64,000 nucleotides of DNA, taken from Vreelandella piezotolerans (GTDB lineage: Bacteria; Pseudomonadota; Gammaproteobacteria; Pseudomonadales; Halomonadaceae). Both the position numbers and the translations under genes were made by a program. The stretch lies in contig NZ_CP048602.1 in assembly GCF_012427705.1 (NCBI RefSeq), forward strand, positions 1,488,001 through 1,552,000, written 5' to 3'. Positions 56,417 through 64,000 of this stretch are shown piece after piece (within the stretch, counting starts at the first letter, position 1; every line of letters begins with the position of its first letter). The notes under the pieces are model-generated. The model saw only the letters and a list, made by a program, of their open reading frames with translations, did not search any database and had not been told where the DNA came from.

Positions 56417-57028
56417 ATGCGCGAAAATGCCAAAACCCCGGAACGCCATGCCCAGCGCATGGCGGCCAAGCAGAAAATAATGAACGAGCGCATTGCCCGC
56501 GCCGACAAAGAGCAGGGCATCTTGCTGGTGCTCACCGGCCCCGGCAAAGGCAAAAGCAGCTCCGGTTTTGGCATGCTCGCCCGCGCCCTTGGCCACGGCA
56601 TGAAGGTCGGCGTTGTGCAGTTCATCAAGGGCGCGTTCAGCACCGGCGAAGAAGCCTTCTTCCGCAACCTGCCCAACGTGGACTACCACGTGATGGGCGA
56701 AGGCTACACCTGGGACACTCAAGACCGCGAACGCGACGTCGCCGCCGCCAACGCCGCCTGGGAGCAAGCCAAGCGCATGCTCCAAGACGACAGCTATCAC
56801 ATGGTACTGCTCGACGAACTCAACATCGCCCTACGCTACGAGTATCTAGACCTAGACCAAGTGCTCGACGACCTTCAAGCCCGCCCCGCCATGCAGCACG
56901 CCATCGTCACCGGCCGCTACGCCCCCCAACAACTCATCGACCTCGCCGACACCGTCACAGAAATGAAAGTCGTCAAACACGCCTTCAAAGACCAAGGCAT
57001 CAAAGCCCAAAAAGGCATCGAACTTTGA
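56417..57028 (+). CDS. cobO: Cob(I)yrinic acid a,c-diamide adenosyltransferase
   Basis: A 203-aa CobA/CobO/BtuR-family enzyme that adds the upper adenosyl ligand from ATP to cob(I)alamin and precursors. Motifs are ILLVLTGPGKGKSSSGFGMLARALGHG (P-loop, about residues 35-61), VGVVQFIKGAFSTGEE, VLLDELNIALRYEYLDLDQVLDDL, and VVKHAFKDQGIKAQKGIEL at the C-terminus. It is slightly longer at the N-terminus than Salmonella CobA (196 aa). It is the last gene of the riboswitch-led operon and the last recognisable core-genome gene before the accessory right end. Confidence 0.95.
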   Translation: MRENAKTPERHAQRMAAKQKIMNERIARADKEQGILLVLTGPGKGKSSSGFGMLARALGHGMKVGVVQFIKGAFSTGEEAFFRNLPNVDYHVMGEGYTWDTQDRERDVAAANAAWEQAKRMLQDDSYHMVLLDELNIALRYEYLDLDQVLDDLQARPAMQHAIVTGRYAPQQLIDLADTVTEMKVVKHAFKDQGIKAQKGIEL

Positions 57029-57599: not shown

Positions 57600-57995
57600 T
57601 TGGCTGAAGGTCGAGAAACACGAGCAGCAATTGATTCAGAAACCGTGCGCGGCTTATTGCTGATAAACGGTGGTGGTGCCGTGGCATTGCTCGCATTCTT
57701 GTCTGGAATTATTGAAAAGCCCGACCTAGAAGTTCTGGCGAGAGCTGTTATCTGGTCAGTTTTCGCATTTCAAATCGGCCTTGCTTGCGCAGTTATACAC
57801 AATAGGTTTCGCCGCCTCTGTTCACTGGAATTCTCGAAGAAAGCCGAAAACCGGAAAAAGTGCACCCTGTTTGGTCGAGAGAGCACTCAGCCATGCATCT
57901 GCTTATGGAGCGTTGGGTTTATGTGGGCGTCGATCATTTCCTTTCTATCTGGTGGCATATTGGTGCTGTGTGCGGGTCTCCAAATTCTGGACTAA
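57600..57995 (+). CDS. Small membrane protein of unknown function (cassette gene)
   Basis: A 131-aa protein with no function I recognise. It starts at a TTG (57600) with TAGGAGA 6-7 bases upstream. The soluble N-terminus (ETRAAIDSETVRGLLLINGG) leads into membrane segments at about residues 24-42, 50-68 and 103-128, with a basic, Cys-containing loop (RRLCSLEFSKKAENRKKCTLF) between the second and third. GC content is well below that of the neighbouring cobalamin genes. It lies between a GTTGGGC core and an attC-like site 22 bp after its stop, the layout of an integron cassette. Proteins with the ETVRGLLLINGG-type start are scattered in accessory DNA. Confidence 0.7.
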   Translation: MAEGRETRAAIDSETVRGLLLINGGGAVALLAFLSGIIEKPDLEVLARAVIWSVFAFQIGLACAVIHNRFRRLCSLEFSKKAENRKKCTLFGRESTQPCICLWSVGFMWASIISFLSGGILVLCAGLQILD

Positions 57996-58223: not shown

Positions 58224-61200
58224 ATGCCACAATCACCTGAACTCGCCGGCGGCGAAGGTTTTACCTTTGAAGGGGACGCGGCTGCGTTCTACCTCACCGC
58301 ATTGCTAGCCGAGGCTTTTGCACCCGGCATTGATGATCGAATCGTTGTCCGAGTGTCGGTTCAGCAGCGCGACTTCGGCGAACCGCTCGATGATGTAATC
58401 GTCGATTTTGGAGGGATAGCAAAGAACCCCGCTCGACTTAGCCTCCAGGTGAAACGTTCACTTACGATCAGCAAGGCAAAAACGAATAAAGACTTTCGCG
58501 ACATCATCCGAGACAGTTGGGCCACAATCAAAAAGTCCGACTTCCGCATCAACGCTGATCGCTATGGGGCAGCGGTTGGCACGGTTACGCCTACCAAAGA
58601 AAGGGCGCTCAACACCCTTTGCGATTGGGCCCGTGAAAGTCTGACAGCTGACCATTTCGACGCTCGCTTTGCGAAAGATGGCAGCGCTAGCGCCGACATC
58701 ACAGCGGTCAAGAACGACGTCATTGCCCTACTGGAAGAGGCGAAGGGGACACCGTGCACGAGTGAAGAAGTGCACCAGTTCCTGGCGCACTTTGTGCTCA
58801 TCCAGTTCGATTTCCTTCGAGAAGGAGCCACTGATCCGCCTGATGCCATTAATCGCATTCGAGATTGTCTCGTGCCCGATGACGCAGCCAAAGCCCCACT
58901 CGTCTGGTCGCGGGTCGTTCAGTTAGCCCGCGCATCAGCAGGGAAGTCAGGCCAGTTTGATCGCGCGCGGCTTGTGCGTTCGATCTCATCTGTCGCACGC
59001 CTTCGAGGCGCGACGTCCTTGTGCCGAGATCTCGACAAGTTGAAGGAGCTCGCAAGGAGCTACGAGAACCTTATTCCGGACGATGTTGGCGGAATAAAGC
59101 TCGACCGAACCTCGCTCCTTGAGAGGCTGGACGCCAAGCTTACCGCAGCCCGTGTCGTCCAGGTCCGAGGCCTGCCAGGAAGTGGCAAATCAGTCTTGGT
59201 GAGGCGAGCGGTACAACGCGCGCTAGAACGCGGACCGATCCTCTTCCTCAAAGCCGAACAGCTCGAAGGCACCAGTTGGGTCAGCTACGCGGCCTCGCAG
59301 AGACTCTCTGGTGCTCCCCTGGAGCAACTTCTCGTGGAGATCGGAGCCGCCGGCACTCCCATTTTGTTTATCGATGCAATTGATCGCATTGAGAAGGAGC
59401 ACCAGCCCATAATCCTCGACGTAATCCGTGTCATCGCGGAGTCGCCGCTGCTCGATAATTGGCGCGTCGTTGTCTCCCTGCGCGACACAGGGATTGAAGT
59501 GCTTCGCAATTGGTTAGGCCACTTCCTTGATGTCCTGAAGGTCGAGACGCTTGACGTTGGTCAGCTGAGCGACGAAGAGGCTGAGACGCTTGCAAAAGCC
59601 AAACCACACCTGAGGCCACTTCTGTTTGGATCAGCGCAGGTGCAAGAGATCGTCCGACGCCCCTTTTTCGCGAAGGTGCTGAACCAGAGTTATGTGGCTG
59701 ACACCAGCGTCCCGACATTCGCTCCCCGATCTGAAGTCGATTTGATCGAGAATTGGTGGCGGCGGGGTGGCTACAACGAGACCGGCCAAAGCGCGATTGA
59801 GCGTCAGTGCGCATTGCTCGACTTGGCACGTATTCGTGCCCGCCAGCTAAGCCAGCCGATTCGCATTAGTCAGCTAACCTCGGCCGCACACATTGATGAT
59901 CTAAGATCGGATGGCATACTTCAGAACGCTCGTGAAGGGATCTCCGTCCGCTTCGCTCACGATATTTTCTTCGAATGGGCCTTCTTCTATGTCCTGGCTG
60001 ATCGCGGGCCCCAATGGATCGAAGAGATCAAGACCTGCGGCGAGCCGCCAGCGGTCGCACGCGTCGTCGAACTTGTTTCCCAATGGGAGTACGCACAGGG
60101 AGAAGACTGGCCAACGTACCTCGCCCAAACCGAGGGGTCGGACCTTAGATCACAATGGCTGAGAGCGTGGCTGATCGGTCCCCTCGGAACTGCGAGGTTC
60201 GAAGCTGATGAGGGCCAGTTCGCGACGGCTGTCTTTGCCGACGACTTCCGGCTTTTCAGAAAGGTGCTCGTCTGGTTTCAGGCGGAGAAGACCTCTCCGA
60301 ATGCGAGTATCCTGGCTGGCACGCTCCCACAGGAGCAACGCCAACGGTTCGCTGATCTTCTCGGCTGGCCTTCCGACTTCGCCGCGTGGCGTCACCTCAT
60401 CGGCTTTATTCTCCGGCGCGTTTCAGATATTCCACAGAGGCTATATCCGGAGGTAGTCGCAATCTTCGAGGTCTGGCAGAACGCCCTAGCCGAACTTCGC
60501 AACCCGACATCTCGCGCTCTTTTACAACAATGCGCTATCTGGCTCGCCGCCATCGACGCGCTTAGTACCGCTGATGGGCCTGACGAAAACTCTGAGTACT
60601 GGGCGCGGGTGCCCGACTTGGGCGCTTTCCGAAAATCTCTTGGCCAACTTCTCTTAAGATCGTCGAGAGCCGAGCCGACCCTTGCGGCCGACTATTTGCA
60701 GCGGGTCGTCGCTTTAGAACGCATCCGTGATGATGCGTTTCATGACATTATTGCCTACTCACCTGTACTCGCCCAATCGCTGCCTCAGTCGATCGTTGAG
60801 CTTTCACTGGTTTTCTTGCGCGAAGAGCTTCCTGACGAGCAAGTTGCCCGTGAAAAGCAGGAGCTTCGGACCGCATACGAGTGGCGCAAGGCCATTCTGG
60901 CCAAGCCTGAAGCCGAGCGCACGCGTAAACAGCAAATGGCGCTTTCCTTCGGTGTTTCTTTGCGAACGGTCGGCGATTTCAGTTACCACGACTGGGAAAG
61001 GCTTTCGATCCACGACGACTACCGAAGCTTCTCGCCCCCTTCGCCGCTTAGAGAGCCCTTTCACTCACTTTTCCAATCATCACCCGACGAGGCCCTGCGT
61101 CTCTTTCGGGAACTGTGCAATCACGCGATGACCGCGTGGCGACAGCTGCATCGTTATTCACGAGACCGTGATGGCACCCCCATACCGCTCGAACTGACAT

Positions 61201-63608
61201 TTCCTTGGGGTACCCAAAAGTTCTGGGGCACCGACCGGGAGTATCTTTGGTTTCGGTCGACGTGGGCGCCCAATGCCATCGGCTGCGGGTTTATGGCGCT
61301 TGAGGAGTGGTGCTTCGCCGAGCTTGAGCGTAACAGGTCCGTCGACGAGTTGATCCAGCGAATCGTCGAGGGGAATGAGTGTATGGCTATCCTAGGCGTC
61401 GCGTCGATGCTTGCGCTCCATACTGAGACGGTGTCCGAAGGGACGTTGCCGCTCTTCACCTCACAGCGCCTGTTGGCGGCAGACCATAACCGAATGGCGC
61501 AAGATTTATCGTCAACTGCGAACCTGATCGGCTTCACGCAACGCACCGACATGCCGCACGTAGAGGCGATCCAAGCAGCAAACGCCCGGCCGGTTCGCAA
61601 GAAACAGCTTAGCTGGATGGTGCCCAGGTTCATCTTTGAGCCTGGACCGATCAGTGATCAAGCCCGTGAAGCAATACTTAATTTCAAGAACGATCTGCCA
61701 TTTCAGTACGAAGAGCACCGCGACATTCCTGAGGCACGGGAGGACCTCACAAAGCAGGCCCTCGAATATGCCGAGTTGGCGGACACAGAAAACTATCAGG
61801 CCTACCGCACGGAAGAGGGTTCGGATCAAATAGCGATTGTCCACGTTAGCCCTTCCGCTGCTGAGCCTGAAAATGTCGCCAGGGCCGAAGAGGCTACTAA
61901 GTACCTCAGGCTGACCGGCCTTTGGACGTGGGCATCCAAATCATTCGAAGAGAAGACGTTAAACGACACCTATACGATAGAGGATGCCATTGTGTTGTCC
62001 AAGGAAGCGGACGCCAGAGACTTATTCGAACACCCGGGCAGCGAGAACGAAGAAGAACAGTTGGGAATGCGTCGGGGTGCAGTCGCCGCCACGGCGGCCA
62101 TAGTGCTTAACTTCCGAGAAGGCTGTACACACGAAGACCTTGGGTGGGCTCGTGGTGTCCTGGGACGCGCGATCCGTCTGCCAGAAAATTTCGATCTGAT
62201 GTGGTCCCCCAGTTCCGTCGTCCCATGGCACCAGGGGATCTATGTGGCCCGAGGCCTCGCAGCGGATCTCCGCGAAGGTACAGCGGCACGCGGTGCGACT
62301 CGCGACCTCCTTGGGCTGATTGCACACCCACTGGAAGTCGTTTCGTTGGCCGCGCTTGAAGAAGCCTGCAAGCTTTGGCCTAAGGACTCCAAATTGACTT
62401 GGGCCGCGCTGATCTTGGCATTTTCACTCTGCCACGTTCCTTCTCGGCCGCGGGACCAGCCCCGTCAACACGGTGAAGCAATCCATACATCGAATGAAGC
62501 ACAAGCAGCTGTCAACGCGGCGCTTGCGTTCTATGAGCATGGAAGAGGATGGGCGCCTCTCCCGTTACCGCCTCCAGCCTGGGTGAAGGTCGAACCCGGG
62601 AAGGGGCGGCGTGAGCATCAAAGATATGAAGATTACGACTTGGATGATGCAACCGACGCTGCTGAGGTATGGGGTGAACCGGATGTCTTCTGGCACTCAA
62701 AGCAGGCTGCAGAAGTCCTTCAGCGCATCCCCTTCGACGAGGTTATAAACAGCAGTGCAAAGAGAGTGCTTCTCGACTTCCTTGCCAGTGTTCTCGACTG
62801 GACCAACCAGAAAAATGCGCCACCGTGGGTGAAGCCTGGACGCCGTGATCGGTCAGCGACCCAGATCTTTGAGTGGACGCATACGCTCGGATCAAGGTTG
62901 GGTCACGTGGCTGGCCTTATCCCGCTTGCTGACTTTCAGGCCCGCTTCCTTGACCCGATTTTGGGTCTCGAAGGCGACAATTGCTGGGCTCTCCTCTCTC
63001 CACTCGCGAGCACCTACGTCTGCGCTTATCTGTACGATGCGCCGGTCGTTCCAGCCGACGCGGTTGCGACGCTTGACCTCTGTCTCGGGCGGCTTCTCCA
63101 GGCCCCCGTCTTCATGCGCGACACCTACCGAAGCGGAGAATTCTCAGGCTTCGATCAACCCAAGCTTGTTCGCACGTTGATGTTTGTCTCAGTCGAGCGC
63201 GCGGAATTGGCCGCTCGCTACGTGAATGGCGACTGGTCCGAAATCAGCCGCATTCTGCCATTGATTGATCGTTTCATTCGCGCTGGCGGATGGGCTGTTT
63301 CCGTGATGGACCCGTTCTTGACGCTCTGTGAGCGAGCTAGGGCCAACTATCCGGCCGAAGCCTTCGCGGACCAAGTGCTCGCAATTATCGGCGACGGCCC
63401 CGACAATCTAAAGGGTTGGCATGGAACGTTCATTCCGGCGCGAATCGCAGAACTGGTTCAGCACTTTGCACATCGTGACGCACCAATGACACTGGCTATA
63501 GCTCAGAAATTCCTGCGGATCCTCGACATGCTGGTCGACATGGGCGACAGGCGAAGTGCGGCGCTTCAGCTTGGTGAGGCATTTCGCGAAGTTCGTTTGC
63601 CTTCCTAA
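58224..63608 (+). CDS. Giant Cap4-like nuclease / STAND NTPase protein (candidate Avs-like antiphage protein)
   Basis: A 1794-aa protein. The N-terminal domain (residues 9 to about 190) fits the Cap4/DUF4297 dsDNA endonuclease pattern: GEGFTFEGDAAAFYL, then PLDDVIVDF (Asp56/57) and LSLQVKRS (QxK, Gln75-Lys77), a PD-(D/E)xK variant. A P-loop NTPase follows with Walker A GLPGSGKS (316-323), Walker B LFIDAIDRI (381-389), a sensor-like VVVSLRDTG (Arg420) and FAHDIFFEWAFF (577-588), the His-Asp motif seen after STAND/NACHT domains. The remaining 1200 residues are mostly helical by composition and have no motif I know. This nuclease-NTPase-sensor order is that of Avs-type proteins, which recognise phage proteins and cut DNA. 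A 37-codon open frame (58127-58240) overlaps the start. The gene stands alone between two attC-like sites, and its base use is unlike its neighbours. Confidence 0.78.
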   Translation: MPQSPELAGGEGFTFEGDAAAFYLTALLAEAFAPGIDDRIVVRVSVQQRDFGEPLDDVIVDFGGIAKNPARLSLQVKRSLTISKAKTNKDFRDIIRDSWATIKKSDFRINADRYGAAVGTVTPTKERALNTLCDWARESLTADHFDARFAKDGSASADITAVKNDVIALLEEAKGTPCTSEEVHQFLAHFVLIQFDFLREGATDPPDAINRIRDCLVPDDAAKAPLVWSRVVQLARASAGKSGQFDRARLVRSISSVARLRGATSLCRDLDKLKELARSYENLIPDDVGGIKLDRTSLLERLDAKLTAARVVQVRGLPGSGKSVLVRRAVQRALERGPILFLKAEQLEGTSWVSYAASQRLSGAPLEQLLVEIGAAGTPILFIDAIDRIEKEHQPIILDVIRVIAESPLLDNWRVVVSLRDTGIEVLRNWLGHFLDVLKVETLDVGQLSDEEAETLAKAKPHLRPLLFGSAQVQEIVRRPFFAKVLNQSYVADTSVPTFAPRSEVDLIENWWRRGGYNETGQSAIERQCALLDLARIRARQLSQPIRISQLTSAAHIDDLRSDGILQNAREGISVRFAHDIFFEWAFFYVLADRGPQWIEEIKTCGEPPAVARVVELVSQWEYAQGEDWPTYLAQTEGSDLRSQWLRAWLIGPLGTARFEADEGQFATAVFADDFRLFRKVLVWFQAEKTSPNASILAGTLPQEQRQRFADLLGWPSDFAAWRHLIGFILRRVSDIPQRLYPEVVAIFEVWQNALAELRNPTSRALLQQCAIWLAAIDALSTADGPDENSEYWARVPDLGAFRKSLGQLLLRSSRAEPTLAADYLQRVVALERIRDDAFHDIIAYSPVLAQSLPQSIVELSLVFLREELPDEQVAREKQELRTAYEWRKAILAKPEAERTRKQQMALSFGVSLRTVGDFSYHDWERLSIHDDYRSFSPPSPLREPFHSLFQSSPDEALRLFRELCNHAMTAWRQLHRYSRDRDGTPIPLELTFPWGTQKFWGTDREYLWFRSTWAPNAIGCGFMALEEWCFAELERNRSVDELIQRIVEGNECMAILGVASMLALHTETVSEGTLPLFTSQRLLAADHNRMAQDLSSTANLIGFTQRTDMPHVEAIQAANARPVRKKQLSWMVPRFIFEPGPISDQAREAILNFKNDLPFQYEEHRDIPEAREDLTKQALEYAELADTENYQAYRTEEGSDQIAIVHVSPSAAEPENVARAEEATKYLRLTGLWTWASKSFEEKTLNDTYTIEDAIVLSKEADARDLFEHPGSENEEEQLGMRRGAVAATAAIVLNFREGCTHEDLGWARGVLGRAIRLPENFDLMWSPSSVVPWHQGIYVARGLAADLREGTAARGATRDLLGLIAHPLEVVSLAALEEACKLWPKDSKLTWAALILAFSLCHVPSRPRDQPRQHGEAIHTSNEAQAAVNAALAFYEHGRGWAPLPLPPPAWVKVEPGKGRREHQRYEDYDLDDATDAAEVWGEPDVFWHSKQAAEVLQRIPFDEVINSSAKRVLLDFLASVLDWTNQKNAPPWVKPGRRDRSATQIFEWTHTLGSRLGHVAGLIPLADFQARFLDPILGLEGDNCWALLSPLASTYVCAYLYDAPVVPADAVATLDLCLGRLLQAPVFMRDTYRSGEFSGFDQPKLVRTLMFVSVERAELAARYVNGDWSEISRILPLIDRFIRAGGWAVSVMDPFLTLCERARANYPAEAFADQVLAIIGDGPDNLKGWHGTFIPARIAELVQHFAHRDAPMTLAIAQKFLRILDMLVDMGDRRSAALQLGEAFREVRLPS

Positions 63609-63776: not shown

Positions 63777-64000
63777 TGTAGAAAAACCCCTTTGACAGCC
63801 AGGTTTTGGTAGGATCGGGAAAACAGACGGGGAGTGGTCAGCATGCCGCGCTTCAAGGTTTACAACTACGATCAGAACGCCATGGTGGTGATCAACTACC
63901 AGGATCAGCTTCAGCCTGGCACCTTCGAACACGCAGTGCATTACCTGATCGAGCACAAACTCGACTTGTCGGTTTTCCATCCGGGGTATCGCAACGACAC
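63771..64000 (+). mobile_element. Left end of an IS1182-family insertion sequence (truncated by window)
   Basis: The element is inferred from the transposase N-terminus at 63843 and a TGAGGCTGTAGAAAAACCCC-type end about 70 bp before it, a look common to IS1182-family termini. The right end and the partner inverted repeat lie outside the window, so the left boundary is approximate. Confidence 0.65.
63843..64000 (+). CDS. IS1182-family transposase, N-terminal part
   Basis: 52 codons are visible before the window ends. The start MPRFKVYNYDQNAMVVINYQ and the following LQPGTFEHAVHYLIEHKLDLSVF are characteristic of the N-terminal domain of IS1182-family transposases; the catalytic DDE part would follow outside. 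GGGGAG lies 9 bases before the ATG. Whether the gene is complete cannot be judged here. Confidence 0.85.
   Translation, partial: MPRFKVYNYDQNAMVVINYQDQLQPGTFEHAVHYLIEHKLDLSVFHPGYRND

Follow-up and report, generated by a model that had tools for sequence, protein, structure and literature searches.

Is the very large protein encoded at 58224..63608 of the window a single-gene antiphage protein of the Avs (AVAST) type, and if so, what does it sense and with what does it act? The window is the whole stretch of DNA analysed, 64,000 nucleotides of the Vreelandella piezotolerans genome. The reading frame lies on the forward strand, starts with an ATG at 58224 and ends with the stop codon at 63608; its translation comprises 1794 amino acids and is intact. 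PMC12724215 and PMC12931631 report that the ligand of Avs1-3 is the large terminase and that of Avs4 the portal, that Avs2 oligomerises with ATP, which activates its effector, and that Avs1-4 carry nucleases which cut the genomes of both phage and host.

Organisation of the gene and conservation of its motifs

A preliminary description of the gene had named five motifs in the 1794-residue product. All five are present in the translation: PLDDVIVDF (residues 54-62), LQVKRS (74-79), GLPGSGKS (316-323), LFIDAID (381-387) and FAHDIFFEW (577-585), and the numbering given for D57, K77 and K322 was correct. The core residues of each motif are invariant in a full-length alignment of 14 rows. In the front domain these are P54, D56, D57, L74, Q75, K77 and R78; in the NTPase motifs G316, P318, G319, G321, K322, S323, F382, D384 and D387; and in FAHDIFFEW F577, H579, D580, I581, F583, E584 and W585. 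Relatives are referred to by locus number (L011 and so on), and 8dgf is the solved structure of Avs4. The features of the gene are the following:

58224..63608, +, whole gene: effector-STAND-sensor protein of 1794 amino acids, with homologues; DNA similarity is confined to about the gene
58224..59027, +, front effector domain, residues 1-268: PADLOC DUF626_VIII matches residues 3-240 (3e-24); the boundary is the swap at residue 269 in L011 and L017
58389..58394, +, D56-D57: invariant acidic pair, proposed metal ligands (25/25 and 13/13 rows in two alignments)
58446..58454, +, Q75-x-K77: invariant QxK motif, proposed to be catalytic (25/25 and 13/13 rows in two alignments)
59091..60023, +, STAND/NACHT-like NTPase and the part that follows it, residues 290-600: Pfam, PADLOC, NCBIfam and 8dgf profile match
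59169..59192, +, Walker A GLPGSGKS, residues 316-323 including K322: G316, P318, G319, G321, K322 and S323 invariant in two alignments
59364..59387, +, Walker B LFIDAIDR, residues 381-388: F382, D384, D387 and R388 invariant in a 14-row alignment
59952..59978, +, FAHDIFFEW, residues 577-585: pairs with THDIYEEWAL of the solved Avs4 8dgf; H579, D580 and W585 invariant
60024..63605, +, C-terminal sensor, residues 601-1794: homologous to Avs4 as judged by hhalign
60999..62177, +, direct match of the NCBIfam Avs4 model, residues 926-1318 against model positions 767-1166 (E 5.7e-14)
61041..61127, +, sensor motif SPLREPF...LCNHA, residues 940-968: invariant and near-invariant columns; pairs with 8dgf

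A STAND NTPase related to that of Avs4

Pfam matched the window protein weakly with AAA and NACHT models, the best being AAA_16 (E 1.2e-4, below its cut-off). The PADLOC Avs4 model (PDLC02169) matched with an E-value of 3.9e-21 and its best stretch at residues 291-587, and the NCBIfam Avs4 model (NF041815) gave a whole-protein E-value of 5.7e-30 with the best stretch at residues 290-587. These profile matches identify residues 290-600 as a STAND NTPase of the Avs4 kind. The NCBIfam score, 103.4 bits against a cut-off of 1500 bits, does not reach the equivalog threshold.

A tree of the NTPase region was built from 36 rows and 336 columns, with L034 left out; the order of its deep forks is unsettled and several branches are long. 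The window family forms one clade of 18 rows (support 100/99), the Avs4 set a separate clade of 7 rows (95/97) and a far group a third clade of 6 rows (99/100). The window family thus has a supported clade of its own, and the protein is placed outside the Avs4 clade; from its sequence it is classified as an Avs4-related variant with a different front domain.

Two models of the PADLOC candidate PDC-M54A match the front domain together with the NTPase, at residues 127-587 (4e-15) and 12-586 (2.7e-12), and one of them matches 12 of the 14 members of alignment A1. A related architecture is therefore already listed as a defence candidate; the reported match is in the front-NTPase stretch only, with none in the sensor half. 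Avs2 and Avs3 follow the same effector-STAND-sensor plan. The PADLOC models for Avs2 (PDLC02163) and Avs3a (PDLC02167) found no match in the genome that carries the gene, and assignment to either type was rejected, for Avs2 also by the sensor comparison described below.

Homology of the C-terminal half to the Avs4 sensor

When the NCBIfam Avs4 model was run on genomes, it matched the gene twice, with model positions 186-471 (1.1e-15) and 767-1166. With the single window sequence the only PDB match was 8dgf (E 0.14, not significant), and an 8-row family profile matched 8dgf_A with an E-value of 1.5e-31, NTPase and sensor both being aligned. The NTPase alone might carry such a signal, and it was therefore cut away before the sensors were compared. 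Profile rows were hand-picked, first 16 and then 20 from the family, first 3 and then 7 from Avs4. The comparison of 16 family rows with 3 Avs4 rows gave an hhalign probability of 97.5% (E 7e-12, 665 columns); for this set 40 column-shuffled decoys reached at most 0.4% and the reversed alignment 0.0%. With 16 and 7 rows the values were 99.6% and 7.8e-25, and with 20 and 7 rows 99.9% and 3.1e-34, the alignment now running near end to end (5-1185 against 14-1096). These profile comparisons covered the C-termini of Avs4 and Avs2, and the match of the family sensor to the latter stayed at 0.1-0.2%, which marks the Avs2 C-terminus as unrelated by profile.

The profile comparisons identify the roughly 1200 C-terminal residues, which had been called uncharacterised, as homologous to the Avs4 sensor. 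The protein thus combines a putative N-terminal effector, a central STAND NTPase and a large C-terminal region related to the sensor of a known Avs type, and by this sequence evidence its architecture is that of Avs in the broad sense, as the Avs-type architecture of the preliminary description had it. Avs4 is likewise one large single gene with the same three-part plan. The proposal that the sensor may define a subgroup held in so far as the NTPase tree gives the family a clade to itself; the sensor itself is of the Avs4 type.

Distant members were also compared one at a time by hhalign. Some of them resemble chiefly one of the two sets and gave weak values with the other: against the window family L086 reached 24.6% and L084 13.7%, and against the 3-row Avs4 set L048 reached 73.5%, L055 50.7% and L049 49.1%. 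Two members bridge the groups in the PADLOC Avs4 search: L060 (1.2e-97, best stretch 308-1271) and L047 (1.4e-23, best stretch 858-1283), the sensor being matched in both.

Selection was estimated from pooled pairs of 10 close homologues (Nei-Gojobori). The dN/dS ratio was 0.12 for the effector, 0.14 for the NTPase and 0.18, 0.18 and 0.16 for three parts of the sensor, so every domain is under purifying selection. A hypervariable sensor was considered and rejected, dN/dS ranging from 0.05 to 0.25 across windows of 60 codons.

From the homology to the Avs4 sensor, we give the portal roughly an even chance of being the ligand. It is also conceivable, though we consider it rather doubtful, that the same sensor-effector machine reads something else, its sensor having drifted to another phage protein, for instance a terminase, a capsid protein or a tail protein. 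Where the sensor aligns with that of Avs4, the two share only 18% identity; the match is weakest over the last 400 residues, which taken alone give 0.3% with the small sets and 38.6% with the large ones, neither significant; and Avs5, according to PMC12931631, shows that ligands differ between Avs types. Against such a change stand the near end-to-end homology obtained with the larger sets and the dN/dS of the sensor, which is much as in the rest of the protein and would be expected of a domain that reads a conserved fold.

The front domain

Residues 1-268 had no match in Pfam and no convincing relative among PDB sequences, and the front domain of the family did not match that of Avs4 (hhalign 0.1%). 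The silence of Pfam means little, because Pfam names no nuclease in an E. coli Avs4 (L082) either. The PADLOC DUF626_VIII model, which matches the window protein, also matches 14/14 members of alignment A1; the front domain corresponds to positions 3-223 only of this 474-position effector model.

Conservation was assessed in a hand-picked set of 25 front domains, from which near-duplicates and relatives that were broken or incomplete had been removed, together with L034 and with L049, whose annotated start falls inside the domain. Besides the invariant D56, D57, Q75 and K77, a glutamate at the position of E16 is kept in 23 of the 25. An acidic pair followed by Q-x-K, with a mostly kept glutamate ahead of them, is the usual layout of PD-(D/E)xK nucleases. 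The designation nuclease rests on this motif pattern and on the PADLOC model, because neither Pfam nor PDB offered a convincing relative and comparison with Cap4 stayed at noise. We infer a PD-(D/E)xK-like nuclease activity for the domain.

The N-terminus had been described as Cap4-like, and a true Cap4/DUF4297 nuclease is a tentative possibility that we would not favour. The Cap4-annotated domains that were fetched show a similar DD...QxK pattern, the DD...QhK arrangement is common to the Cap4-annotated sequences aligned, and the Cap4-like domain of L097 aligns its DDV...YQVK with the front domain. The profiles speak against it: hhalign against Cap4 domains gave 0.1-3.0%, at the level of noise, with 0.4% for a reversed decoy, and the Pfam Cap4_nuclease model matches another gene of the same genome and not the gene in the window. 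With no significant match from Pfam, PDB, the Cap4_nuclease model or hhalign, assignment to Cap4 by sequence is unproven, and what the two have in common is the DD...QxK pattern. That the domain is some other metal or nucleotide enzyme, and not a nuclease, would fit the lack of Pfam or convincing PDB relatives; it is unlikely in view of the invariant D56-D57 and Q75-x-K77 and the mostly kept E16.

Exchange of the front domain

The DD...QxK front domain also occurs on the far groups (hhalign 100%, E 3.9e-48) and on two members of the Avs4 clade (98.8% for L086 and 97.9% for L060). The reverse situation is found in L011 and L017: their front is a different one, but from residue 269 through to the C-terminus they share 82% identity with the window protein. 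DNA similarity of these two loci to the window gene begins at about codon 269 (blastn). Their own front domain, about 195 residues long and 77% identical between the two, lacks the DD/QxK motif. It gave weak Pfam and PADLOC matches, none of them convincing, and no relative of it is encoded on plasmid records. Here closely related sensors follow different fronts, with the junction at a single residue; this amounts to a natural experiment in effector exchange and offers a way to study the coupling of sensor and effector in NLR-like proteins.

Since the DD...QxK domain is present in the window family, in the distant L047 and L048 groups, in L060 and in L086, the Avs4 sensor may belong to a wider, perhaps portal-sensing superfamily with this domain as its common effector. 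On this view E. coli Avs4 would have acquired its present front later, in place of this domain, and L011 and L017 would carry yet another effector, possibly not a nuclease. We offer this reading speculatively.

Two other members of the Avs4 clade differ at the front as well. L084 has another front, in which Walker A is preceded by 96 residues, and an annotated gene of 699 bases lies immediately upstream of it; the front of L085 matches neither the front domain of the window family nor that of the far groups.

Distribution and apparent transfer of the gene

The genome, a single contig of 3.9 Mb, contains one match to the window protein. On GTDB contigs 23 loci with relatives were found, with best segments 57-98% identical, in alpha-, beta- and gammaproteobacteria, Desulfovibrio, Sulfuricurvum, a Chlorobiaceae, a Nitrospinota and an actinomycete bin, among others. 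Thirty plasmid records match, six of them covering 80% or more of the query, all below 60% identity; plasmid records annotate the relatives as ATP-binding, NACHT-domain or hypothetical proteins. Phage records contained no relative. On viral contigs no relatives were confirmed with the single window protein or L047 as queries, and the queries with alignments yielded 4 loci and 6 loci, some of the contigs being common to both. Occurrence is patchy: in a sample of 398 genomes of the phylum 14 match, counting the genome itself and partial and far matches, and none of the three same-genus genomes listed (0/3). Four relatives, L019, L023, L028 and L054, have broken reading frames.

In 14 loci a blastn comparison of the locus with its relatives produced one match along the full length of the gene; the database also contained rows of protein alignments, none of which is among the matches. 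Twelve of the 14 matches overrun the start codon by at most 39 bases and the stop codon by at most 10. The two longer matches are those of L014 (98.9% identical), reaching 113 bases before the gene and 117 after it, and of L003, reaching 137 and 53 bases, respectively. As DNA similarity stops near the ends of the gene, the unit shared among relatives is a single gene, in agreement with the single-gene unit of the preliminary description. To judge from these comparisons, the gene seems to move on its own among widely different bacteria.

In the flanks of the relatives 58 ORFs were scanned, out of 120 listed and 234 found. At a threshold of 1e-10, PADLOC recognised 23 families with one member each, including Dsr2 (2.1e-178), DruF, type I restriction, AbiGi and ThsA1, and Pfam found Phage_integrase in 7 of the 58. 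These counts, taken from the flanks alone, are an illustration and not proof of enrichment. One relative has a 1247-aa ORF directly upstream (L005:3699-7439) that looks SIR2-like by eye and is perhaps the Dsr2 match.

Proposed function

Taken together, the gene probably encodes a single-gene Avs4-related STAND immune sensor with a PD-(D/E)xK-like DNase front, with the portal as the most likely ligand. In the resting protein a nucleotide would be bound at the NTPase. Upon infection the C-terminal sensor would recognise one of the conserved structural proteins of the phage, the portal being the best candidate; on binding ATP the protein would then oligomerise, and its N-terminal domains would thereby become clustered and activated. 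The activated front domain, acting through D56/D57 and Q75-x-K77, would cut DNA, and the infected cell would die or stop. We infer both oligomerisation and abortive infection for the window protein. An antiphage function is likely on the sequence evidence. STAND proteins also include transcription regulators such as MalT, and a regulator or signalling protein with no antiviral role is nevertheless very improbable, given a sensor homologous to a phage-sensing protein, the patchy presence, the single-gene spread across phyla, the swapped front domains, and the defence genes and integrases in the flanks of relatives. With the portal, the immune-sensor reading supplies a testable guess at the ligand of a group of giant proteins that is widespread among bacteria.

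Neighbourhood of the gene

The gene is located 3′ of a cobO-like gene (56417-57028, Pfam). Just upstream of it lies an ORF of 131 aa, 57600-57995, in which hydrophobic stretches can be seen by eye. It had no convincing family match in Pfam, PADLOC or NCBIfam, and DNA similarity with the 14 relatives falls short of it, for which reasons it was rejected as a partner gene and is not taken as part of the system. Directly 3′ of the gene a transposase-like ORF (by eye), which we take to be IS1182-like, begins at 63834 and runs past the end of the window at 64000 (L043:16834-18417). It is followed by a DEAD-box helicase-like ORF, again by eye, and further on by a CobQ-like ORF (L044:12915-14387). Elsewhere in the window a cobalamin riboswitch (RF00174, 49648-49896, 97.2 bits) lies upstream of an ORF that resembles a TonB receptor by eye.

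Outside the window the same genome encodes a second giant STAND protein, of 1910 aa, on the reverse strand (L098:3337-9069). Its front is CBASS-effector/SAVED-nuclease-like (PADLOC 7e-9 and 3e-8), Pfam Cap4_nuclease matches it at 5e-4, below the cut-off, and an Avs1b match covers residues 345-595 (5.5e-11).
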